Assembly (NCBI GenBank): GCA_902619805.1
Contig: CACNGC010000001.1
Coordinates: 1-64,000, forward strand
Origin: an uncultured SAR116 cluster alpha proteobacterium
GTDB lineage: Bacteria > Pseudomonadota > Alphaproteobacteria > Puniceispirillales > Marisalimonadaceae
Length of the DNA: 64,000 bases
Direction: 5' to 3'
Positions 49,165 through 60,525 of this stretch are shown piece after piece. How positions within the stretch are numbered: position 1 is the stretch's first letter; each line of letters opens with the position of its first letter. The position numbers and the translations under genes were made by a program. The notes under the pieces were generated by a model. The model had not been told where the DNA came from. It ran no database searches and saw only the letters and a list, made by a program, of their open reading frames with translations.

Positions 49165-49262
49165 TATAATTTAATAATCTTAGTGATGATTTTATTAATT
49201 ATTGAGAAAAAGGGAACTTTGCCTGACGAACATTTATCACTTTATTTATAACTCTGTAATCG

Positions 49263-49398
49263 TTATCAGGCTTCAAACACAAAAAACCCAAAAACCAAAG
49301 TCTTTGATGGTGATCTAAGTCATTGACTTTATTGATATAGTTGGTTGCAGGAGTAGGATTTGAACCTACGACCTTCAGGTTATTAGCCTAACGAGCTA
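49263..49398 (-). repeat. Block A: degenerate tRNA-fMet 3' fragment plus downstream flank
   Basis: On the minus strand 49341-49398 reads from the D-arm end through the anticodon arm, variable loop and T arm to ACC of an initiator tRNA. The 5' acceptor strand and most of the D arm are missing. The anticodon loop is altered (CAT has become AAT) and one anticodon stem base differs, so it cannot be a working tRNA. The 75 bases on its left are a diverged copy of the flank seen next to blocks B and C. The 430-base gap 49165-49595 holds only this block and AT-rich sequence. Confidence 0.8.
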
Positions 49399-49595
49399 AT
49401 CAATCATTCTTATTTGTAAATGCACCAATTACCTAATCAAGATTGAAATTTAGTTAAAGGGTGGTCTGCCAATTTATTTGGCAAATCTAACTTATTAAGC
49501 TATTTTTGTATTTTTTTGTGTTGAAGTATTTTTTTCTTGAATATTGTTTATCAACGATACTAACAACTTAGTTTGTAATTTTAAAAGGTGCTTTA

Positions 49596-51926
49596 ATGTC
49601 ACAGCAAAATGGCTCTTACGGCGAGTGGATACTTAAATATAGATTTCTAGTTTTAGGTCTTATTACAGCTGTAACCTTGCTTGCTGCCGTAGGAATCCAA
49701 TTTCTTTATTTTGACAATGATTACAGAGTGTTTTTTGGAAAAGAAAATCCTCAACTTAAAGCATTTGAAAAAATCCAGCAGACCTATACCAAGATAGATA
49801 ACGTTAACTTTGCTGTTGATCCAATTTCAGGCAAAGCTAATGCGCCTGAGGTGTTGGCCGCTGTTGAGGAGTTGACTGACATTGCATGGCAACTTCCTTT
49901 TTCCATCCGAGTTGATAGCCTGTCAAATCATCAGCATACCGAGGTTGAAGGTGATGATCTGATTGTGCGAGATTTATATACTGATGCAATGTCAATGAAC
50001 GCTAATGAACAAGCTTTGGTTGATCGTGTGAGTACGACTGAGCCGGCTCTGGCAGGAAAAATTCATGATAAGCAACATCGGGCCACATCCGTAAATGCAA
50101 CCATTCAGATGCCAGGTAAAAGCGCTGACGAGGTTGCCATTGTGGCAGCCGCTGCACGCGAAATGGCTGCCGAGATCGAAGCTAAACATAATGTCAAAAT
50201 TCGCTTGGGAGGTGTTATATTTCTGAATAACGCGTTTCTGGAATCATCAATGCTAGACATGGCAACATTGGTGCCGGCGATGTACTTGGTTATTTTAATT
50301 GTCGCTTATTTATTGCTTAGATCGATAATGGCAACATTTTTGGTGCTGTTTGTTGTTGTGCCAAGTATCATTGTAGCTATGGGCGCTGGTGGGTGGATGG
50401 GCATTGGCCTAACGCCTCCATCTGCCAGTGCACCAACCATTATCACCACCCTTGCGGTCGCCGACGCAATCCATTTATTGGTAAGTATGTTCAACCGGAT
50501 GCGGGCAGGGCATAGTCAACGCGACAGCTTGCTTTACAGTATACGAGTTAATGGTAAACCTATTTTTCTAACTAGTCTGACAACGGCTCTGGGTTTTCTG
50601 TCGATGAATTTTTCAGATTCCCCACCGTTTCACGACCTGGGTAATATAACAGCCATAGGTGTTATGGCTGCCTGGATATTTTCAATCGTTCTATTACCTA
50701 TTCTCATTAGCTTTGTTCCGCTGAAATCAAAAGCCACCTTGGCAAGGCTTGATGATAAAATGGGAAAGCTTGGTGTCTACGTCGCTTCGCGTTATAAGTC
50801 GGTTCTAACTGCCAGTGTTATTATCTCAGTTAGTATTCTGTCACTTATTCCACTCAATGAAATCAATGATGACTTTGTTAAATATTTTGACGAGTCAGTC
50901 CAGTATCGTCAAGATACCGACTGGATCAGTCGCAATCTAACTGGTGTCAATCAGGTGCAATTTAGTTTGCCTACTGGCGAACCCAATGGTATTAGCGATC
51001 CGGTCTTTATCGAAAAAGTATCTAATTTTACCGCCTGGGCGAATAATGAGCCTGTGGTAACACATGTACAATCTATTTCGGACACCTTCAAGCGTCTTAA
51101 TCGTGATCTGAACGCTGGTGACCCGGCTTTTTACCAGGTGCCTGATACGCGCGAACTTGCTGCCCAATATCTACTTTTATATGAGCTATCGTTGCCATTC
51201 GGTTTGGATTTGAACAATCAACTTGATATAAGCAAATCATCAACACAGGTCATTGTTACAATAGACGATATGACCACGAATGAACTTCGTGCTTGGATTG
51301 CTCGGGCTGAAAGCTACCTTGCGGATGAGCTTGATTTTAACCTGACAGCTGTCGGACCTACTGTGATGTTTGCCTATATTTCCGAACGTAATATTCAAAG
51401 TATGTTGCTAGGAACCCTTATTGCCGTTTTTCTGATTAGTGGTGTTATTCTAATTGCCTTACGTGATGTCCGGCTTGGAATCATCAGCTTGATACCTAAT
51501 TTGCTGCCTGCGGCACTCGCCTTTGGCCTTTGGGGTTTGCTTGTGGGGCAGGTCAATATGGCTGTCGCTGTTGTTGCGGGTATGGCGCTTGGCGTTGTGG
51601 TTGACGATAGTGTTCATTTTCTCAGCAAATATCAGATTGCTCGACGCGAATTAAAACTGTCTGCACATGATGCTGTCATTTCGGCTTTCAAAGGTGTTGG
51701 AACGGCACTCGTTGTTACAACTCTGATACTAACAGCTGGTTTTGCTATTCTGGCTCAATCAACCTTTGGCGTGAACAGCAATATGGCAATGTTAACAGGC
51801 ATAGCCCTTGTTATAGCTTTAATTGCCGATATGACTTTGCTCCCTGCTTTGCTGATTGCCCTTGATAAGGATAAAAAAGAAACTACACCAATAATAGGTG
51901 TTAAAGAAGCACCACAAAATGCTTAA
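49596..51926 (+). CDS. RND/MMPL-family exporter
   Basis: A 776-residue RND-superfamily permease with about twelve membrane helices: one at residues 15-35, a cluster near 215-370, and a mirrored cluster near 620-765, with two large periplasmic domains. 'ALGVVVDDSVHFLSKYQIAR' is the MMPL-type core carrying Asp residues for proton relay, mirrored by 'TLAVADAIHLLVSMFNRM'. Such exporters move lipids, hopanoids or other hydrophobic compounds. It has AAAGG before the ATG and much more G+C than the flanks. The LolA-like and barrel genes follow. Confidence 0.88.
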   Translation: MSQQNGSYGEWILKYRFLVLGLITAVTLLAAVGIQFLYFDNDYRVFFGKENPQLKAFEKIQQTYTKIDNVNFAVDPISGKANAPEVLAAVEELTDIAWQLPFSIRVDSLSNHQHTEVEGDDLIVRDLYTDAMSMNANEQALVDRVSTTEPALAGKIHDKQHRATSVNATIQMPGKSADEVAIVAAAAREMAAEIEAKHNVKIRLGGVIFLNNAFLESSMLDMATLVPAMYLVILIVAYLLLRSIMATFLVLFVVVPSIIVAMGAGGWMGIGLTPPSASAPTIITTLAVADAIHLLVSMFNRMRAGHSQRDSLLYSIRVNGKPIFLTSLTTALGFLSMNFSDSPPFHDLGNITAIGVMAAWIFSIVLLPILISFVPLKSKATLARLDDKMGKLGVYVASRYKSVLTASVIISVSILSLIPLNEINDDFVKYFDESVQYRQDTDWISRNLTGVNQVQFSLPTGEPNGISDPVFIEKVSNFTAWANNEPVVTHVQSISDTFKRLNRDLNAGDPAFYQVPDTRELAAQYLLLYELSLPFGLDLNNQLDISKSSTQVIVTIDDMTTNELRAWIARAESYLADELDFNLTAVGPTVMFAYISERNIQSMLLGTLIAVFLISGVILIALRDVRLGIISLIPNLLPAALAFGLWGLLVGQVNMAVAVVAGMALGVVVDDSVHFLSKYQIARRELKLSAHDAVISAFKGVGTALVVTTLILTAGFAILAQSTFGVNSNMAMLTGIALVIALIADMTLLPALLIALDKDKKETTPIIGVKEAPQNA

Positions 51927-51954
51927 GCTCATGATGTTGTCTAAGGAGATTAAA

Positions 51955-52740
51955 ATGAAACTCGGTACTGTAACCATGTTTGTCGCTATTGCCACTGCCG
52001 TTATGATAACAGCGGCATTTGCCTCGCCTGAAAAAGGACTAGAGATTGCGATTGAAGCCGATAGCCGCGACAAGGGGTTTGGTGATTCAACCGCACAGAT
52101 AACAATGATCCTAATGGACAAATATGGGCAATCAACTGAACGTACAATCCGTAATAGAACGTTTGAGGGTTATAATGAAGGTGATAAGTCTCTTGTGATA
52201 TTTGATAGTCCGGGCGATGTGCGCGGCACAGCTTTCCTTTCGCACACAAAAAAGGCTGATTCGGATGACCAATGGCTATATTTGCCAGCTCTGAAACGCG
52301 TTAAGCGTATCGCATCGTCAAATAAGGCAGGTCCTTTTATGGGTAGTGAATTTTCGTATGAAGATATCGCTAGTCAGGAAGTTGAAAAATACACCTATAA
52401 TTATCTGCGTGATGAAGAGTTGAATGGTCTTGAGTGTTTTGTTGTTGAATATGATCCGGTTGATCGCAAAAGTGGCTATAAGCGCCAGATTGTTTGGATG
52501 GATAAAGCTGAGTACCGCGTTCACAAAATTGATTTCTATGACCGCAAAGACGCACTTTTGAAAACCTTGACCTATGAAGATTATAATCAATATCTAGATA
52601 AATTCTGGCGGTCTAATCGTTTGGTTATGATTAATCACCAGACAGGCAAGAAAACGGAACTCGTGTTTGCCGATTGGAAGTTTCAGACCGGTATGACCGA
52701 ACGTGATTTTGAAAAATCCACATTGAAACGGACACGATGA
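51955..52740 (+). CDS. Outer-membrane lipoprotein-sorting (LolA-like) protein
   Basis: A 261-residue periplasmic protein with a signal peptide of about 22 residues. 'DDQWLYLPALKRVKRIASSN' and 'FMGSEFSYEDIASQEVEKY' are typical of the outer-membrane lipoprotein-sorting family that accompanies MMPL exporters. AAGGAG 7 bases before the ATG at 51955 decides the start; upstream in-frame codons overlap the permease. It probably carries a hydrophobic cargo across the periplasm. Its last codons overlap the start of the barrel gene. Confidence 0.82.
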   Translation: MKLGTVTMFVAIATAVMITAAFASPEKGLEIAIEADSRDKGFGDSTAQITMILMDKYGQSTERTIRNRTFEGYNEGDKSLVIFDSPGDVRGTAFLSHTKKADSDDQWLYLPALKRVKRIASSNKAGPFMGSEFSYEDIASQEVEKYTYNYLRDEELNGLECFVVEYDPVDRKSGYKRQIVWMDKAEYRVHKIDFYDRKDALLKTLTYEDYNQYLDKFWRSNRLVMINHQTGKKTELVFADWKFQTGMTERDFEKSTLKRTR

Positions 52741-53903
52741 TTACGTATTATGCTCGTTGCTTTGCTATTGTCCTTTTGTTAACACAACCGGCTTTTGCTG
52801 GTAAGGTTAATGGCACGCTTTCATCACGGCTAGATTTTTATCCTGATCATGCTGATGGTACGGCGTCAGAAGGACGCTCGGTGGAAGTAAAGATTGATGC
52901 CTTTCATGATTTTGACAAAAGTCGAATTGTGGGTGAATTCATTTTCCGTGGGGATAAAAAAGATAGTGGTCGCCGGATCACTGAAGCTCGACAGGCTTAT
53001 TTTCGCAGTCCCTTTGCCGGATTTGATTTTTTTGTTGGAAATCGTCAGGAATTTTGGGGTAAGGCAGAAAGTAAAAATGTTGTTGATGTTATTAATCAGT
53101 CCGATGCTGCAGCAAATGATGGTAAATCAGGTAAACTTGGGGCACCATCTATATCTGCTGAACGCTATCTAGATGTTGGTAACCTGCAGCTTTGGTATAT
53201 TTCTAGTTTTCGAGAAAAAACATTTAATGATAGTGACGCGCATCCAAGTAGTGGAGTTCCAGTCAGTTCTGCACAATATGCGCGTAAGAATGGCAAGGAT
53301 GCAGATGACTTTGCGGCACGCTTGTCTAGCTTTGCTGGAGATTGGGATCTAGCAGGAAGTGTTTTTTACGGTACCGCTCGTGATCCCATTTTGTCTGTCA
53401 ACAGTAATGGAAGCGCATTAAACCCACATTACGCTTTACAAAAATCAATAGGATTTGAAGCTCAATATACTGGCGATGTTACATTGCTCAAATGGGAAAG
53501 CCTTCATGGCACCCAAAGCAGCTTAATTGGCGCTCATGATTTTGCGGCGGCTGTTGCGGGGATTGAATATACTTATTACGGAGCATTTGAAACAATATGG
53601 GATATTGGCTTGATTGGTGAAATTCAACATGACGACCGTCCACAGGCCGCAGCTAATCAATTTGGTGTTGCGGGTGTAAGGCTTGTATTTAATGACATTG
53701 CAGACAGTAATTTTTTATTTTTGGCATCGTTGGATCGTAAAACGGATCAGTCCTTTGCCTCTTTGGAAGCGTCGCGACGGATCAATGATGTCACCAGTGT
53801 CAAATTGACCAGCCAGTTTTATAATGCACGCACAGCCACGTCTACATTTGGGCAGCTATCGGATGATGATGCAATCACTTTAACGTTAAATATATTTTTT
53901 TAG
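52737..53903 (+). CDS. Outer-membrane beta-barrel protein
   Basis: A 388-residue protein with a signal peptide (MITYYARC..., cleaved near 'QPAFAG'). The rest alternates hydrophobic and polar residues as amphipathic strands and ends in a C-terminal Phe, the outer-membrane targeting signature. It overlaps the LolA-like gene by four bases. The set of RND permease, periplasmic carrier and barrel resembles a dedicated hydrophobic-compound export route. The family itself is not recognised. Confidence 0.78.
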   Translation: MITYYARCFAIVLLLTQPAFAGKVNGTLSSRLDFYPDHADGTASEGRSVEVKIDAFHDFDKSRIVGEFIFRGDKKDSGRRITEARQAYFRSPFAGFDFFVGNRQEFWGKAESKNVVDVINQSDAAANDGKSGKLGAPSISAERYLDVGNLQLWYISSFREKTFNDSDAHPSSGVPVSSAQYARKNGKDADDFAARLSSFAGDWDLAGSVFYGTARDPILSVNSNGSALNPHYALQKSIGFEAQYTGDVTLLKWESLHGTQSSLIGAHDFAAAVAGIEYTYYGAFETIWDIGLIGEIQHDDRPQAAANQFGVAGVRLVFNDIADSNFLFLASLDRKTDQSFASLEASRRINDVTSVKLTSQFYNARTATSTFGQLSDDDAITLTLNIFF

Positions 53904-54179
53904 AACAATATGTATTTTAGTAAACTTCAATCAAAAAATAACTTACTGTTTTATGTTTAATATTTTCCTTAGCCATCATTATTCACACATATAATGTATC
54001 TTTTAAACCAATTTAATAACTGAAACCAACTTATTTACAAATAATTAAATAAGCCTATATTAATATCAAGTATTTACCCAGCCAAGTTTTTGTTATTCTT
54101 TTGTGATTATGCTTCAGATGGGTGTTAATTTTATGGAAAATCTGTCCCCTAATTGAGAGGGTTGGAGATCTAAACTAAT

Positions 54180-54572
54180 ATGCTAATTTTTTCACTCATA
54201 CTAATTATAATATTTGGAAATTTGGTTTATGCTTATCAATGTATTTTCCAAACACGCAAGTACATTGAGAAATATGGCTTCGGTGAAGGTAGTGCAATTA
54301 TGACAAGACTTGTTGGTACTTTTGCTGCCGGCTTTTCAGTAACCCTAGCTATTGCTTTATTCACTTCTATCGAAGGTGCTTGGCTACTATTTGTCTATGG
54401 TTTTGTGCAAGCATGTATTGGCGCTGTTGTTTGCTTTCAAACTATCCATAGTTATTGGGGTTCTGTTGATGGCGTAAAGACATCTGCTGAAGGGTACGTC
54501 GCCCCTGCTATAATAGCATTTTTAAACTTAATGGTGCTTGTTACTGGTTGGGATATTCTGTTTAAAATTTGA
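54180..54572 (+). CDS. Small multi-pass membrane protein
   Basis: A 130-residue protein with about four hydrophobic segments (1-18, 43-65, 68-92 and 108-128). 'GFGEGSAIMTRLVGTFAAGF' and 'WLLFVYGFVQACIGAVVCFQ' do not point to a known family for me. Its base composition is between that of the exporter operon and the host. The 276 bases before it hold nothing that I can recognise. Confidence 0.6.
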   Translation: MLIFSLILIIIFGNLVYAYQCIFQTRKYIEKYGFGEGSAIMTRLVGTFAAGFSVTLAIALFTSIEGAWLLFVYGFVQACIGAVVCFQTIHSYWGSVDGVKTSAEGYVAPAIIAFLNLMVLVTGWDILFKI

Positions 54573-54644
54573 TCGCTATATCGTAATGAATTTATTTAAA
54601 TACGTGATATGATAGATAAGTAATAATTAATTAGAGATATTTAA

Positions 54645-54926
54645 ATGAATGATAGCAAAGTACCTAATTGGCTTATAAATGCATCTAATAGAATAATTGA
54701 ACACATGAATGATGACCATTCTAATTCAATTGTATCAACATTAAATGCTCAACATGGCATTAAAGACAAAAATGCAAAAATGGAGAAGTTACAAGTTAAA
54801 GGATACTTTGCTTTATCAAATCAAAAATTATATTTTTTAGAATTTGAACAAGTTTGTAATTCTGCTGAAGAATATAAGGCAGAACTTATTAAGCATGCTA
54901 AGAAGTATAAACAATATGAATTATGA
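54645..54926 (+). CDS. DUF2470-like protein
   Basis: A 93-residue protein. 'IIEHMNDDHSNSIVSTLNAQ' is the signature of DUF2470, the C-terminal domain of HugZ-type haem oxygenases and some pyridoxamine-phosphate-oxidase-like proteins. Here the catalytic N-terminal domain is absent, so this is a stand-alone copy. Composition is like the host. It ends shortly before the int-like remnant at 54898-54975. Confidence 0.72.
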   Translation: MNDSKVPNWLINASNRIIEHMNDDHSNSIVSTLNAQHGIKDKNAKMEKLQVKGYFALSNQKLYFLEFEQVCNSAEEYKAELIKHAKKYKQYEL

Positions 54927-54975
54927 TCATTAAAATGGAATAAACCTGACGACTGGTTGGCACGATGGTTGGCAT
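54898..54975 (-). pseudogene. Possible N-terminal remnant of an integrase
   Basis: A 25-codon minus-strand frame begins 'MPTIVPTSRQVYS' 90 bases downstream of the tRNA-fMet fragment B and then stops. Tyrosine integrases often start just outside their tRNA attachment site. The same coding pattern, decayed ('IPTILPIRRK'), occurs next to block C. The identity is inferred from position and repeated occurrence, not from a catalytic domain. Confidence 0.3.
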
Positions 54976-54985
54976 GGTGAAACCC

Positions 54986-55117
54986 TTATCAGGCTTAAAA
55001 CGCAAAAAAACCCCAAAAACCGAAGTTCTTGATGTGCGTATAAGTTATTGATTTTATTGAATAAGTTGGTTGCGGGAGTAGGATTTGAACCTACGACCTT
55101 CAGGTTATGAGCCTGAC
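54986..55117 (-). repeat. Block B: tRNA-fMet 3' fragment plus flank
   Basis: 55067-55117 on the minus strand matches the 3' half of initiator tRNA, from the anticodon stem ('CAGGCTCATAACCTG') through the T arm to ACCA. The homology stops abruptly at 55117, and D arm and 5' acceptor are absent. The left flank (54986-55066) is shared with block C almost base for base in its first 30 positions. The 418-base gap 54927-55344 is filled by this block and by the repeats at 55153-55213. Confidence 0.85.
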
Positions 55118-55152
55118 TCTTTTCCGCAGAGATCTGCCATTATTTAAACATT

Positions 55153-55213
55153 GTTGGTATAGTGGTTGGTACGGTTTTTCTAACTTTATTCTGGTTGGTA
55201 CAGTGGTTGGTAC
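55153..55213. repeat. 12-bp-period direct repeats beside block B
   Basis: Two pairs of a GTTGGTAC-like motif with a 12-base period lie at 55153-55172 and 55193-55213; a related pair is at 54955-54975 on the other side of the tRNA fragment. Their position on both sides of an att-like core resembles integrase arm-binding sites. The left pair also codes for VPT in the integrase-like remnant. Function is inferred. Confidence 0.5.
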
Positions 55214-55344
55214 AGATTGACATTTTTTAAGTTTTTTAAGTTGTTGAACTTACTAAAAAAGAGATAAAAGTGGTAAGTTTTATTAAAAGTAATAACGTGT
55301 TCCATGCATAAGTAAGAGAGGAATATGTTGGATCAGTATCTAAA

Positions 55345-56079
55345 TTATTTAAAATCAAATGGTGGTAACTCTTTTATACTTTTTTTTAGAGCCTCTCCCC
55401 AACTATTTGATATTTTTTCAAAATAAGGATCATTCTTTTCAAATCTTATTTGATTATTCAATTCAAGATCATCTTTTTTTAAGGTACAGACATCTATTGG
55501 CATGCCTACTGAAACATTAGCCTTCATAGTACTATCAAATGAAACTAAAAGTAGTTTTATTGCATCACCGAAGTTTGAGTCTTTTTCTAGTGCTCTAACA
55601 ATAATTGGTTTGCCATATTTTGTTTCTCCAATTTGAAAAAAAGATTGATCTTCAGATGCTTCTATAAAGTTACCCTCAGGATATATTAAAAATAACCTAT
55701 GTTCTTGACCTGCAATTTGACCACCTAAAATTAATGTGGAGGAATATGGATTTTCACCTACTTGACCATCAAAAGAGTATTCATTAGATATATTTCTTAA
55801 AATTTTTCCAACAATTCTTGCAACTTGAAACATTGATTTAGTTTTAAGAATATTATCGTTATCATTATTGGGATTATCTATAGCTTCATTTATGAGATTG
55901 ATAGTAGCCTGGGATGTGGCTAAATTTCCGGAAGTTAATAAAACTACACTTCTTTCGTTTTTATTCGACCAAAAAAACATTTTTTTATTTGTATTAACAT
56001 TATCAATTCCCGCGTTAGTTAAAGTATCTGACATGAATACTAAACCTTGATTTAATTTTAATCCTACACAATAAGTCAT
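55345..56079 (-). CDS. anbu: Anbu proteasome-like Ntn-hydrolase
   Basis: A 244-residue protein of the Anbu (ancestral beta subunit) family. It begins MTYCVG, so Met removal exposes Thr as the N-terminal nucleophile; 'FMSDTLTNAGIDN' and 'NKKMFF' provide the Asp and Lys of the proteasomal active site. Anbu forms open-ring or helical oligomers in known structures, but its physiological substrate is not established. It is the last gene of an operon with an amidoligase and a transglutaminase. 13 bases separate it from the transglutaminase. Confidence 0.9.
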   Translation of the reverse strand: MTYCVGLKLNQGLVFMSDTLTNAGIDNVNTNKKMFFWSNKNERSVVLLTSGNLATSQATINLINEAIDNPNNDNDNILKTKSMFQVARIVGKILRNISNEYSFDGQVGENPYSSTLILGGQIAGQEHRLFLIYPEGNFIEASEDQSFFQIGETKYGKPIIVRALEKDSNFGDAIKLLLVSFDSTMKANVSVGMPIDVCTLKKDDLELNNQIRFEKNDPYFEKISNSWGEALKKSIKELPPFDFK

Positions 56080-56091
56080 TATGCACCTTGA

Positions 56092-56901
56092 TTATTGATT
56101 TAAAATATCAATTGATAATTCTAAATTTTGATTTTCAATAAAATATCCATTTATAACACCTTTTACAGGTACTACATCATTATAATCGAAACCTTTTGCT
56201 ATTTCTACATATCTGTCATCTGGAGAAATACCATTAGATATATCAAAACCTATCCAACCAAGATTTTCTATAAATACTTCAGCCCAAGCATGCATGGAAA
56301 GATTATGAGTATCTTGTATGGGTTTAAATAATCCACTAACATATCTACAAGGCAGATTATTCATTCGGACTATAGATAAAAATATATGAGTGTGATCCTG
56401 ACAAACACCAAACTCTTTTTTAAATGCATTTTCAGCTGTCGTTTTATAATCTGTTTTTCCTTTTTTATATTTAATTTTAGACTTTATTTTAAATGAGAGT
56501 TCATGAAGACTTCCTATCAAATCCTCGAAATTCAAAATGTTTTCTTTGTAAAACTTTGATAGATATTCACCAGGTTTCGTAAGGTAAGTTTTATCAATGT
56601 AACACCAAAGTGGAAGATCTTTTTTTGAGATTTCTTTTAATCCAAAGTTAGACTTTGTTTCAACCTTACCAAAAATATTATATTCAATTTTTTTAGAGTT
56701 ATTGTGTATACTAACCAAATCTATTAGATTACCAAATTGATCAATAGAATTAAGTTCCTTACTTCCACCCTCAATATTAATTTTCCAATCTAAAATTTTT
56801 TGACTTTCATTACTTTGAGGGGTTAAAAGTAGCTTATTAAACCCAAAATTAATCGTTCCATCAATTTCATATATAATTTTTTGTGTTATTTTTAAAATCA
56901 T
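56092..56901 (-). CDS. Transglutaminase-like cysteine protease family protein
   Basis: A 269-residue protein with a bacterial transglutaminase N-terminal domain, then the papain-like core: Cys in 'KKEFGVCQDHTHIFLS', His in 'SMHAWAEVFIENLGWI' and Asp in 'FDISNGISPDDRY'. Such enzymes hydrolyse or form isopeptide-type bonds. In alpha-E/ATP-grasp operons it is proposed to process the peptide made by the amidoligase. It lies four bases from the alpha-E gene. Confidence 0.9.
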   Translation of the reverse strand: MILKITQKIIYEIDGTINFGFNKLLLTPQSNESQKILDWKINIEGGSKELNSIDQFGNLIDLVSIHNNSKKIEYNIFGKVETKSNFGLKEISKKDLPLWCYIDKTYLTKPGEYLSKFYKENILNFEDLIGSLHELSFKIKSKIKYKKGKTDYKTTAENAFKKEFGVCQDHTHIFLSIVRMNNLPCRYVSGLFKPIQDTHNLSMHAWAEVFIENLGWIGFDISNGISPDDRYVEIAKGFDYNDVVPVKGVINGYFIENQNLELSIDILNQ

Positions 56902-56905
56902 ACTA

Positions 56906-57832
56906 TTACTGGAAATTAAATTCTTCCTCTATATTTGCAGCTAATGTCATATTTAATTTAAATAGACTATCCAAAAATGAATGATTATTAAAATTTCTAC
57001 TTTTTTGTTTAATTTTTTTTTGAATACTTAGAGCGTTTTGGTAACTTTTATTTTTTGGAAAGTTTTTTTTATGTATTGACCTTAAATTTTTAATAGTTTC
57101 GTTAACACAAAACATTAGTGATTTAGGCATATCTTTATCTGATATTAAAAAATAAGAGACTTTATTAGCTTTAATTTCATTTTGATTTTTCCACATAAAT
57201 GATCTGTATGAAGAAATACTTCTCAAAATCATCTCTAATTGAAAATTATCGTAACCTTCAAATCTAATTTTTTTTTCGTCTAATAGAAGATAATATCTTG
57301 TATTCAAAATTCTTACAGTATTATCAAATCTCTCAATAAATGTTCCTAAATAGCAGAAATTTAAAATTTCATTTTTCAACATGCTTCTTTCTAAAAAGCC
57401 AAAAATCAGAGCAATTTTTTCTCTTGTATTTTTTATGATTGTTTGAATTTTACTTTCATTTATTTTTTTATTGAGTTCTTCATTTAAATATAACCAACAA
57501 GTGTTTATGGCCTCCCAAACCTCCGATGTAATTGATACTCTTGATCTTCTTGCATTTTCTCTAGCTTTATCAAAAAGTATTAAAATATTATTAAAATTCT
57601 TAGGATCTTTTAACATGAAGTTAATTATATTAAGACTATCTAAGGAGTTATTTTTCTTTAAAAAATGATGTCTTATAGAATTAGTCCTTAAAATTGCATC
57701 CCATTCATTATTCAAATTACTAGACGATAAAAGGTACAATTGGAAACCACTCTCAATCATACACAATGTATTTTCAACTCTCTCAATATATCTAAACATC
57801 CAAAATAAAGAGTCGGCTGTACTTCCTAGCAT
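56906..57832 (-). CDS. Alpha-E (DUF403) domain protein
   Basis: A 308-residue all-helical protein. 'MLGSTADSLFWMFRYIERVE' is the N-terminal signature of the alpha-E family, and 'ARENARRSRVSITSEVWEAI' is the central block. Alpha-E proteins always occur with circularly permuted ATP-grasp enzymes. Its ATG shares bases with the ATP-grasp stop (TAATG), so translation is coupled; the upstream alternative codon at 57850 is rejected for that reason. Confidence 0.92.
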   Translation of the reverse strand: MLGSTADSLFWMFRYIERVENTLCMIESGFQLYLLSSSNLNNEWDAILRTNSIRHHFLKKNNSLDSLNIINFMLKDPKNFNNILILFDKARENARRSRVSITSEVWEAINTCWLYLNEELNKKINESKIQTIIKNTREKIALIFGFLERSMLKNEILNFCYLGTFIERFDNTVRILNTRYYLLLDEKKIRFEGYDNFQLEMILRSISSYRSFMWKNQNEIKANKVSYFLISDKDMPKSLMFCVNETIKNLRSIHKKNFPKNKSYQNALSIQKKIKQKSRNFNNHSFLDSLFKLNMTLAANIEEEFNFQ

Positions 57833-59256
57833 TATGAACTCAATATCCAAGTATCTTTAGTACCACCACCTTGACTAGAGTTAACAACAAGAGAACCTTT
57901 TTTTAAAGCAACTCTGGTAAGGCCACCACTTATAACTGTAACCTTTTCTTGTGCTAATAATGCAAAACACCTAAGGTCCACATGTCTTGGAGTTAGACCT
58001 TTTTTTGTATAAATAGGACATGTAGATAGAGATAAAGTTGGTTGAGCAATATAACTGTAAGGATTTTTTTTAATTTTATTTTTAAATTTTGATATTTCAG
58101 TTTTGCTTGCTAGTGGCCCTACTAGCATCCCATAACCACCTGAGCCGTGAACTTCTTTAACGACTAATTTATTCAAATTGTCTAATACATATTTCAATTC
58201 ATCTTTTATACGGCACTTGAATGTTTTTACATTTTTTAAAATTGGTTTTTGACCCAAATAAAATTTAATTATGTCAGGAATATACGAATAAATTGATTTA
58301 TCATCTGAAATTCCTGTACCAGGAGCATTTGCGATTGTAACGTTTTTATTTCTGTATACCTCCATTAGACCTGGAACACCTAAAAAACTATCTTCTTTAA
58401 ATGTTAATGGATCTAAAAAGATATCATCTATTCTTCTATAAATTACATCTACTCTTTTCCAACCATTTATGGTTTTCATGTTTAAATATTTATTAATTAC
58501 ACGAAGATCCTTTCCTTCTACTAATTCAACACCAAGCTTATCTGCTAAAAAAGCATGTTCAAAAAACGCAGAATTATATATACCAGGAGTTAGCAAAACT
58601 ATGTTTGGGTTTATTTTTGATTTTTTTGGTGAGGACTTCTTTAAAATTTCAGATAAGTATTTGGCATAGTTTCTATTTTCAGATACTTTATATCTTGAAA
58701 TTAGCTCAGGAAATAATTTTATCATGGTATCTCTATTCTCTATCATATAAGAAGCTCCAGACGGGACTCTAACATTATCCTCTAGTACATAAAAATTATC
58801 TGAATTTGTTTTAATTAAATCTATGCCAGAGATATGATTGTATGTTTTGTTTGGAGGAGTAAATCCTATAATCTGCTTCAAAAAAGCAGTATTATTTTGA
58901 ATTAGATCAACAGGTATCACACCATGTTTTATTATCTCTTGTTGGCCATAAATATCAGTGAGAAAAAAATTAATAGCCAAAACTCTTTGTGTTATCCCTC
59001 TAACCAATTTATCCCATTCCTTGGAGTTGATTATTCTTGGGATTATATCAAACGGTATTAGATTCTCTTTTTTGTCACTAGAATAAACTTTAAATGATAC
59101 ACCTGTATTTTCAAAAAATTTCATTGCATCAGAATTTATTTTTGTTAATTCATCATTATCCTGGTTTTTATACCAACTGATAAACTTTTTGTAATTGGTC
59201 CTTACAGAGTTTTCATTTATAAAAGCCTCGTCATATGTTTTTGTAAAATAAGTCAT
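57832..59256 (-). CDS. Circularly permuted ATP-grasp amidoligase
   Basis: A 474-residue circularly permuted type-2 ATP-grasp protein. 'YVLEDNVRVPSGASYMIENR', 'VIYRRIDDIFLDP', 'VKEVHGSGGYGMLVGP', 'DLRCFALL' and the terminal 'SSQGGGTKDTW' are its ATP/Mg and substrate blocks. It is predicted to join an amino acid or acid to an amine with ATP. It is the first gene of the four-gene Anbu operon. The 557 bases upstream hold block C and AT-rich sequence. Confidence 0.92.
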   Translation of the reverse strand: MTYFTKTYDEAFINENSVRTNYKKFISWYKNQDNDELTKINSDAMKFFENTGVSFKVYSSDKKENLIPFDIIPRIINSKEWDKLVRGITQRVLAINFFLTDIYGQQEIIKHGVIPVDLIQNNTAFLKQIIGFTPPNKTYNHISGIDLIKTNSDNFYVLEDNVRVPSGASYMIENRDTMIKLFPELISRYKVSENRNYAKYLSEILKKSSPKKSKINPNIVLLTPGIYNSAFFEHAFLADKLGVELVEGKDLRVINKYLNMKTINGWKRVDVIYRRIDDIFLDPLTFKEDSFLGVPGLMEVYRNKNVTIANAPGTGISDDKSIYSYIPDIIKFYLGQKPILKNVKTFKCRIKDELKYVLDNLNKLVVKEVHGSGGYGMLVGPLASKTEISKFKNKIKKNPYSYIAQPTLSLSTCPIYTKKGLTPRHVDLRCFALLAQEKVTVISGGLTRVALKKGSLVVNSSQGGGTKDTWILSS

Positions 59257-59478
59257 ACTTAGTTTCCTAATAATACAATTTAAGTAGAATAATCCTTAAA
59301 AAACCTACATCAAGATTATTTACGGAGTAATTATAAATTATTAAATTAAAGACCTAAAATGCCTAAAAAGTTGTCTTTTAAAATGAAAAATTAAAATTTT
59401 AAATTTTAAAATCACCGCAGGTTAGTATAGTTTTTTCACTTTCTTCTGATTGGTAAGATGGTTGGTATAGCCAAACCC

Positions 59479-59609
59479 TTATCAGGCTTAAAACGCAAAA
59501 AAACCCCAAAAACAATGTTTTTGAGGATCTTGTAACTTATCGATTTTATTGAATAATTGGTTGCGGGGGTAGGATTTGAACCTACGACCTTCACGTTATG
59601 AGCCTGACA
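59479..59609 (-). repeat. Block C: tRNA-fMet 3' fragment plus flank
   Basis: 59558-59609 on the minus strand matches the initiator tRNA 3' half down to the anticodon arm, with one anticodon-stem mismatch. Its flank (59479-59557) is close to block B's. The adjacent right side carries a different direct repeat (ATTTTTGCC twice, 59609-59629), unlike the right side of block B. A decayed copy of the integrase-like start lies to its left (about 59446-59478). Confidence 0.82.
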
Positions 59610-59813
59610 TTTTTGCCCCATTTTTGCCTGTATATATAGGTTTTTGTTTGCAGTTAGCCACATAGTTAGACACTTATAATCAATTTTGATCACAGTATTT
59701 AACCTGTCATTTTTAATCAAATTTCACTAATGAAATGTAAAGTTAATTTAATATAAATGTAAAATTTATTTAATGATTAGTTATTAATGTAATTTATTTT
59801 ATGAGGTAAAAAC

Positions 59814-60140
59814 ATGAATTTTGAAACTATAAAAGGGGCTTTCATAAAACATTATGAAGGTGACTTACAACCATTTATTGAACTTTTTTCAAAAGATTTA
59901 CACTGTGAGTCCATACATAAATCAAGTATGGGAAATAAAGTTAAAAATTACGATGAATTTGTAAATATGATTAACGACGTAAAATGGGCTAGTGAACCTG
60001 TAATACAATGCATATTGGAAACACCCAATACTGTTGTAAAGACTGTTGATGGAATTGATCCTAATTTTACATATCTTGAAATTGATCACATTCAAGATGG
60101 TAAAATAGTCAAACATATTTATGGGAAAGTTCCAAAATAA
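59814..60140 (+). CDS. NTF2/SnoaL-like protein
   Basis: A 108-residue protein. 'NFETIKGAFIKHYEGDLQPF' and 'NYDEFVNMINDVKW', then the closing 'YLEIDHIQDGKIVKHIYG' strand pair, fit a cone-shaped NTF2/SnoaL fold. ATGAGGT is six to eight bases before the ATG. It could be a small enzyme or ligand-binding protein; no catalytic residues are clear. Confidence 0.65.
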   Translation: MNFETIKGAFIKHYEGDLQPFIELFSKDLHCESIHKSSMGNKVKNYDEFVNMINDVKWASEPVIQCILETPNTVVKTVDGIDPNFTYLEIDHIQDGKIVKHIYGKVPK

Positions 60141-60231
60141 ATCATTGAATTATAAAATAACTAAAAATCCTTTTATAAAATTAAAAAATGAGATTATTGA
60201 ACTTCCAATTTTGATTAGAAAGATTAAAACT

Positions 60232-60525
60232 ATGAAAACAAAAATATCCGTAATTAGATTCAAACCTAAACCTGATTGTTTTGACGAATTTTTAAAAAAT
60301 GTAAAAGAACGTTCGAAAGAAAGGGCATTGTCAACACCGCCTACTCATTATTTAATGACTACACCTGATGAAGTGGTAGCAATTGTTTTAAGAACAGAAA
60401 CTGAGTTATCTGAAAGCTCAACCAGAGGTGTTAATTGGTTAGATACTCAAAGACATCTTCTTTTAGAGTATAACGAAGAAGATAGACATTCCATTCCCTT
60501 GACTGGGAATTTAGTCGAATACTAG
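60232..60525 (+). CDS. Small ABM-like protein
   Basis: A 97-residue protein. I start it at the ATG at 60232 because the 37 residues before it are basic, low-complexity and overlap the previous gene. 'KISVIRFKPKPDCFDEFLKN' followed by 'VVAIVLRTETELSESSTRG' suggests a dimeric alpha-beta barrel. Function unknown. It converges with the small membrane gene by a four-base overlap. Confidence 0.55.
   Translation: MKTKISVIRFKPKPDCFDEFLKNVKERSKERALSTPPTHYLMTTPDEVVAIVLRTETELSESSTRGVNWLDTQRHLLLEYNEEDRHSIPLTGNLVEY

Follow-up and report, generated by a model that had tools for sequence, protein, structure and literature searches.

We analysed a window of 64,000 nucleotides from an uncultured SAR116 cluster alphaproteobacterium (NCBI GenBank assembly GCA_902619805.1, contig CACNGC010000001.1, positions 1 to 64,000), in which three blocks derived from the 3' part of an initiator tRNA (tRNA-fMet) gene bound two gene cassettes. 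As the original prediction had described, the blocks (49263-49398, 54986-55117 and 59479-59609) lie in one orientation, and each runs from the anticodon arm to the CCA end of tRNA-fMet and on into a downstream flank common to all three. The tRNA sense is on the minus strand. The shared part starts with TTATCAGGCTT and ends in the anticodon stem (GAGCCTGAC). In the block alignment, block 3 was 88% identical to block 2 (E 2e-43) and block 1 was 85% identical to block 2 (E 3e-36); a fourth copy in the same assembly (contig C13:14941-15064) was 82% identical to block 2. The prediction that the window lacks an intact tRNA-fMet also held, as ARAGORN found 0 tRNAs there, and the sole tRNA call among the blocks by Rfam at the gathering score was the block-2 fragment (41.1 bits). 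Pattern searches of the window's assembly (90.9% complete) found no intact tRNA-fMet, returning only the three fragments at up to 3 mismatches and 0 matches to a D-arm plus anticodon-arm pattern. The block flank can be folded into a hairpin followed by a T run (fold z of -2.76 for block 2 and -1.91 for block 3), which may terminate transcription. C runs occur within the tRNA part of two blocks in other fetched loci (L079:4406-4543 and L084:6067-6190). The features of the array are listed below; arm types A and B are those seen beside the same block on viral contigs. G labels denote the 40 genomes of the genus (G000 being the window's own assembly), L labels denote fetched loci or viral contigs, and C labels denote contigs.

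49208-49267, minus strand: flank to the left of block 1, resembling the left arm found on type-B viral contigs, class B2 (TTTATCAC repeats)
49263-49398, minus strand: block 1, tRNA-fMet 3' part with downstream flank and core; putative ancestral stray attachment block, its left side matching the one block at the empty site of G034
49380-49392, minus strand: core of block 1 (TTATTAGCCTAAC), the left junction of cassette 1; homology with the G002 cassette 1 begins at 49380
49380-55117, strand not assigned: cassette 1 with terminal block 2, 99.2% over 5744 bp to G002
54954-54977, plus strand: pair of type-A-like arm repeats to the left of block 2 (TGGTTGGCACGA, TGGTTGGCATGG); left flank 95% to viral contig L221
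54986-55117, minus strand: block 2, the right end of cassette 1; tRNA-fMet 3' part, hairpin and T run
55100-55116, strand not assigned: core TCAGGTTATGAGCCTGA, the anticodon stem-loop
55117-59609, strand not assigned: cassette 2 with terminal block 3; copies in G034 and G021
55151-55215, plus strand: four type-A arm repeats right of block 2 (55151, 55163, 55192, 55204), at +33, +45, +74 and +86 from 55117
59447-59470, plus strand: pair of type-A-like arm repeats to the left of block 3 (TGATTGGTAAGA, TGGTTGGTATAG); left flank 75% to viral contig L224 (shuffled maximum 65%)
59479-59609, minus strand: block 3, the right end of cassette 2; left neighbourhood resembles that of G034's cassette-2 block
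59609-59708, minus strand: flank to the right of block 3, resembling the right arm found on type-B viral contigs, class B1 (TTAGCCAC)

Comparison with relatives revealed that both cassettes are absent from the orthologous site in the relatives that have it. The 428 bases left of block 1 found a full-length match in 8 of the 40 genus genomes, the window's own counted; the other 32 lack this full-length flank and are uninformative on presence or absence. In all seven relatives with the orthologous flank (G016, G022, G028, G031, G034, G035 and G037), the 3.4-kb stretch examined held one block and neither cassette, with the left flank (97.9-98.4% identity) followed by ~131 bases corresponding to one block and then by the window's right flank (94.6-95.1%). 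The blocks are thus not fixed in all relatives, the arrangement that the original prediction had set against its own account. On contig C1 of G034, the intact tRNA-fMet (629974) and the empty site (722135) lie ~92 kb apart, so the landing site was a stray block and not, as first proposed, one tRNA-fMet gene.

The cassettes themselves recur in other contexts. Cassette 1 is present in G002 (L079:10149-4406) at 99.2% identity over 5744 bp, compared with 85% for ppk of the same genome pair. Cassette 2 is 96.5% identical core to core in G034, where it sits within a tRNA-fMet array behind 23S and 5S rRNA genes, and 97.7% identical in G021, in a copy that reaches the contig end. The left end of the G002 cassette 1 adjoins the 3' end of a gene for a 318-aa tyrosine integrase (PF00589) whose stop codon lies within the core. 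This integrase 3' end and block 1 of the window have only the core in common, which argues against long homology at the junction. Because the cassettes carry long open reading frames (ORFs) and their copies in relatives are 96-99% identical, they look like recently moved cargo units without an integrase, and the earlier description of them as decayed integrative elements is not supported. We also rejected a dispersed-repeat explanation, since units end at the core and arm repeats share an orientation.

The block matched 35 of the 40 genus genomes and 48 of 58 family genomes, where weak matches may represent the tRNA only. A tRNA-fMet D-arm-to-anticodon pattern gave exactly one match in 21 of the 40 genus genomes and zero in 19. 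An intact tRNA-fMet is present in 20 fetched loci, of which 15 carry same-orientation fragments on its 3' side, four have no other block and one (G003) has fragments in the opposite orientation. These counts uphold the predicted repeated site-specific insertion at tRNA-fMet-type sites, and insertion of cassettes at the core as units is well supported. The intact gene is preceded by 23S and 5S rRNA genes in 6/6 loci given to Rfam, G034 among them; a 16S gene was found upstream in one of the six, the sequence of the others being partly N. Exact matches to the block flank occurred in five named records, four from the SAR116 cluster and one from an unclassified alphaproteobacterium. In the window's assembly, 5 of 8 PF00589 matches lie within ~0.9 kb of a tRNA match (contigs C1, C5, C6, C10 and C12).

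We delimited 55 block-to-block segments of 0.9-9.8 kb (median 2.6 kb), drawn from chosen loci and not from all block matches, with gaps of 16 kb or more excluded. Eighteen of these fall into six recurring families whose members match almost end to end, although 9 of 94 block matches stop short of the model's core end and 13 of the 55 segments end in a partial block on one side or both, which affects families F1, F2, F4 and F5. Where a junction escapes the block model, as integrase 3' ends do, units are merged into one segment, and two G002 segments are bounded by tRNA-Met fragments of presumed elongator type. A full integrase is encoded in a single segment, from G002, as counted with models built from the integrases of this analysis and leaving integrase fragments in other segments uncounted.

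Searching IMG/VR with a 39-base block-flank pattern revealed 39 viral contigs that carry the block. It reaches the core end in 38 of them, the contig end cutting the last, and no tRNA 5' half lies right of the core wherever that side is readable; in L195 and L224, ARAGORN nevertheless reports a short tRNA-Met where the block lies. The block on viral contigs is apparently the phage attachment site (attP). An integrase-like ORF is present on 31 of the 39, and each of the four contigs scanned for other proteins (L205, L210, L221 and L223) has genes of phage type, for virion structural, tail-fibre, DNA-ejection, RecE-like or replication proteins. By their arm repeats the 39 contigs divide into type A (12), B1 (14, TTAGCCAC repeats), B2 (11, TTTATCAC repeats) and unclassed (2). 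Eleven of the 12 type-A contigs have two arm repeats on the left, at -37 and -25 in ten and at -38 and -26 in one, and four on the right at +33, +45, +74 and +86; the type-A contig L221 shows two at the standard threshold and six with a looser motif. In collections of named phages and plasmids, no record covered 80% of a query made of the block and its flanks, and the best 20 of 67 and best 5 of 373 matches cover the tRNA part.

The same arms flank the blocks of the window. Repeats like TGGTTGGTAYRG lie beside blocks 2 and 3, with 7 matches in the window at up to 1 mismatch, of which one is away from the array (18387), where 0.68 are expected by chance; in the pairs left of these blocks, the second repeat came from the motif search and the first was read off the sequence. 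The spacings right of block 2 are identical to those of type-A viral contigs, and this flank has 86% identity to L216, against at most 64% for shuffled sequences. Cassette 2 resembles type A at each end, and the outer flanks of the array resemble type B. To the left of block 1, the flank is 96.7% identical to the type-B contig L190, where the best type-A match reaches 65% and shuffled sequences reach at most 68%; to the right of block 3, the flank, which the fetched empty sites share, is 82% identical to L214 (shuffled maximum 66%). Judged by these two similarities, the ancestral junction resembles B2 to its left and B1 to its right, a pattern that the boundary of two older insertions would show. 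Across 808,461 bases of fetched loci, type-A repeats gave 85 matches, 18 of them more than 400 bp from any block, and all 56 repeats within 400 bp of one of 85 blocks share one orientation. With its core in the anticodon stem-loop and arm-type repeats around it, the block has the make-up of a putative tRNA attachment site of a tyrosine integrase.

In lambda-type integrases an N-terminal domain binds the arm sites. Among 24 classed viral-contig integrases (7 A, 10 B1 and 7 B2), identity between B1 and B2 proteins is 53% in alignment columns 1-75 and 89% in columns 101-404, compared with 96% and 91% within B1, 95% and 94% within B2, and 83% and 98% within A; A and B proteins share 28-30% and 61%, respectively. 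This pattern fits an N-terminal arm-binding domain that tracks the arm sequence. For the 19 type-B integrases, the nearest neighbour belongs to the same arm class in 19/19 by N-terminus and in 18/19 by the rest of the protein.

The cassettes carry nine ORFs:

49596-51926, plus strand: MMPL/RND-type transporter, 776 aa (PF03176)
51898-52740, plus strand: LolA-like outer-membrane lipoprotein-sorting protein, 280 aa (PF17131)
52737-53903, plus strand: 388-aa ORF, no family by Pfam, PHROGs, PADLOC or NCBIfam
54180-54572, plus strand: 130-aa ORF, no family by Pfam, PHROGs, PADLOC or NCBIfam
54645-54926, plus strand: DUF2470 protein, 93 aa (PF10615)
55345-56079, minus strand: proteasome-related protein, 244 aa (PF00227)
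56092-56901, minus strand: transglutaminase-like protein, 269 aa (PF01841, PF08379)
56906-57850, minus strand: Alpha-E protein, 314 aa (PF04168)
57832-59256, minus strand: circularly permuted ATP-grasp protein, 474 aa (PF14403)

Pfam found no mobility or phage family among these ORFs, models built from the integrases found in this analysis detected no integrase in either cassette, and PADLOC found no defence genes there. The DUF2470 end of cassette 1 (54624-54974) is 77-81% identical to L071, L085, L092 and L095, where the transporter genes are unmatched; two units may have fused to form cassette 1. To the right of block 3, a 134-aa ORF (60121-60525) has DNA relatives at 72-76% identity in six fetched loci. 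These sit between array blocks in L066, L082, L096 and L100, though not in L084 and L098, and the right flank of the window may therefore be old cassette cargo.

With a probability of about 0.7, we interpret the locus as a small array of cargo cassettes that lack an integrase and lie between attachment sites of phage type. Four things behind this interpretation were directly observed: cassettes are present or absent at one site, their junctions fall at the core, units turn up again in other surroundings, and the block also occurs on viral contigs together with arms that match. A unit would extend from one anticodon core to the next, comprising arm repeats, cargo genes, arm repeats and a ~131-bp block ending in the core, and a tyrosine integrase would recombine cores inside the anticodon loop of 7 bases. 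Where the target is the tRNA-fMet gene behind the rRNA operon, the block that comes in would restore the 3' end of the tRNA; in the window, the target would have been a stray block left by an older junction, which the two cassettes entered. Our best inference is that phage integrases probably catalyse the cassette events in trans. The scheme further supposes a free circle as intermediate, hosts in the SAR116-type group for the phages behind the block-bearing viral contigs, and a route for cassette DNA into new cells.

Several results weigh against this interpretation. At the left end of cassette 1, the flank to the right of block 1 fits neither phage type (61% identity, shuffled maximum 64%), and the hairpin in the block-1 flank is no better than shuffles (z -0.30). 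Exact patterns for the type D, E and C ends found no match in viral contigs, and a further right-end class of TTTAGCTATAA repeats, often with an inverted copy (L085:4819, L071:12932, L076:1077 and others), likewise had no viral match. A pattern for the ATP-grasp cargo of cassette 2 matched viral contigs twice, with zero matches confirmed. For cassette 2 and G034, 96.5% identity hardly exceeds the 94% of ppk, so the excess over the core genome is small for that pair. Type-A phage integrases had only weak matches (23-27%) in five of the 40 genus genomes, and thus no helper prophage was seen with the arrays. A domain swap between B1 and B2 integrases was not borne out, as the rest of the protein tracks class in 18/19 and descent alone could therefore explain the arm-class association. 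Finally, segments classed at both ends had concordant classes in 11 of 19 cases (6.7 expected, p 0.0012, an optimistic value because recurring segments are non-independent), an excess that speaks for the interpretation, but 8 are discordant, and 36 of the 55 segments are unclassed at one or both ends. For this test the motif list was narrowed before the sole run, and viral contigs L215 and L220 were hand-labelled B3 though unclassed by arm typing.

The strongest rival is that the resident 318-aa integrase is the main engine, working as an integron-like platform with the 3' end of its own gene as the docking site. In G002, G035 and G023 the stop codon of this gene lies within the core and a cassette follows the gene, and C-terminal remnants of ~140 bp, which have similar left boundaries and stop at the core or close to it (L142:8942, L077:6317, L077:16615, L145:7955 and L147:3558), serve as junctions elsewhere. 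Fragments of the 3' part of tRNA-Met, which we take to be of elongator type, lie beside the G002 gene (L079 11196-11271 and 14178-14257), and one also precedes the gene in L136, L137, L138, L140 and L141. However, close and near-full-length homologues occur in only 7 of 40 genus genomes (five intact, two broken), compared with 35 of 40 for the block, and the window's own assembly holds at most a 40% identity match. Moreover, the gene is followed by no type-A arms in G017 and G032, and the G032 core is unrecognisable. A pattern search of the viral contigs gave one match to this integrase, with zero confirmed by tblastn. We consider this engine unlikely. Less probable still is that homologous recombination between repeated blocks shuffles the intervals with no integrase active now. 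Blocks of ~130 bp, 82-97% alike where compared, would suffice for occasional exchange, and such exchange may add noise, but cassette 1 in G002 is joined to an integrase 3' end that shares only the core with the block, and right-of-core ends switch at the core in many classes. A stack of separate, once-autonomous elements, each inserted into the tRNA gene and then decayed where it lay, would account for the tandem direct blocks and the phage-like outer flanks, but it is highly improbable given that the orthologous site is empty in 7/7 relatives, that the cassette ORFs lack mobility and phage families by Pfam, and that the units recur elsewhere.

If the locus is an array of cargo cassettes at phage-type sites, marine SAR116-type bacteria appear to trade gene cassettes via sites that phages also use, and a phage-linked route would bring ordinary genes into these bacteria directly behind the rRNA operon. 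The cassette ends match viral-contig attachment sites in arm sequence and spacing, and the helper can therefore be named and tested. To a broader proposal we give slightly less than even odds: SAR116 bacteria and their temperate phages may share one recombination currency, in which a common tRNA-fMet core is combined with class-specific arms as the address, a phage integrase moves class-matched cassettes that lack mobility genes, and the arm class sets which phages can do so.

Several known systems resemble this array. Cis-mobilizable elements (CIMEs), which derive from integrative and conjugative elements (ICEs), carry attachment (att) sites without an integrase, accrete in tandem and are mobilised in cis. 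Here too, two att-type sites flank DNA without an integrase, which is how a CIME is defined, but the cargo amounts to one to several genes, arm classes are many and the arms are common to viral contigs. Phage satellites like the phage-inducible chromosomal islands (PICIs) have integrase, packaging or capsid-interference genes of their own; Pfam, PADLOC and NCBIfam found none in the nine ORFs of the cassettes, with PHROGs run on two of the nine. In the available parts of PMC11389934, clusters of attC sites lacking integron-integrases (CALINs) and tycheposons are among the elements that need helpers. Like CALINs and other integron arrays, the cassettes here form integrase-less arrays that an integrase encoded elsewhere could move (PMC11389934, in part), whereas the site here is a tRNA-derived core with arm repeats and the integrases match PF00589 and phrog_1. 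Tycheposons, as described second-hand in parts of PMC10872708 and PMC11389934, are tRNA-bounded cargo elements of marine bacteria with a tyrosine recombinase. The window has no intact tRNA and its cassettes no integrase; the units here mostly lack a recombinase (a full integrase in 1/55 segments), and segments measure 0.9-9.8 kb, compared with the 4-200 kb quoted for tycheposons in the available part of PMC10872708. Among publications on SAR116 islands and tRNA-fMet, no title addressed this system, a judgement by titles that does not prove absence.

Of the known kinds, the additive flexible genomic island comes closest. In Alteromonas, Ca. Actinomarinales and Ca. Methylopumilus, gene cassettes enter such islands at a tRNA, alongside partial repeats of that tRNA (PMC4119200, PMC7771536 and PMC10872708, each in part). 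The available text of these sources leaves the entry of integrase-less cassettes into additive islands of ocean bacteria unexplained and contains no description of arm repeats. Our case fits this kind: close relatives differ in whether they have the cassettes at this location (7/7 empty, compared with two cassettes in the window), and the genus arrays have a tRNA target with partial tRNA repeats at cassette ends (15/20 loci), the target at the window being a fragment and not the gene. It differs in that the repeat includes the downstream flank, that neighbouring arm repeats match viral attachment sites by class, and that insertion also occurs into stray blocks away from the tRNA. What this case adds to the additive-island kind is arm classes common to viral contigs and insertion into stray blocks.

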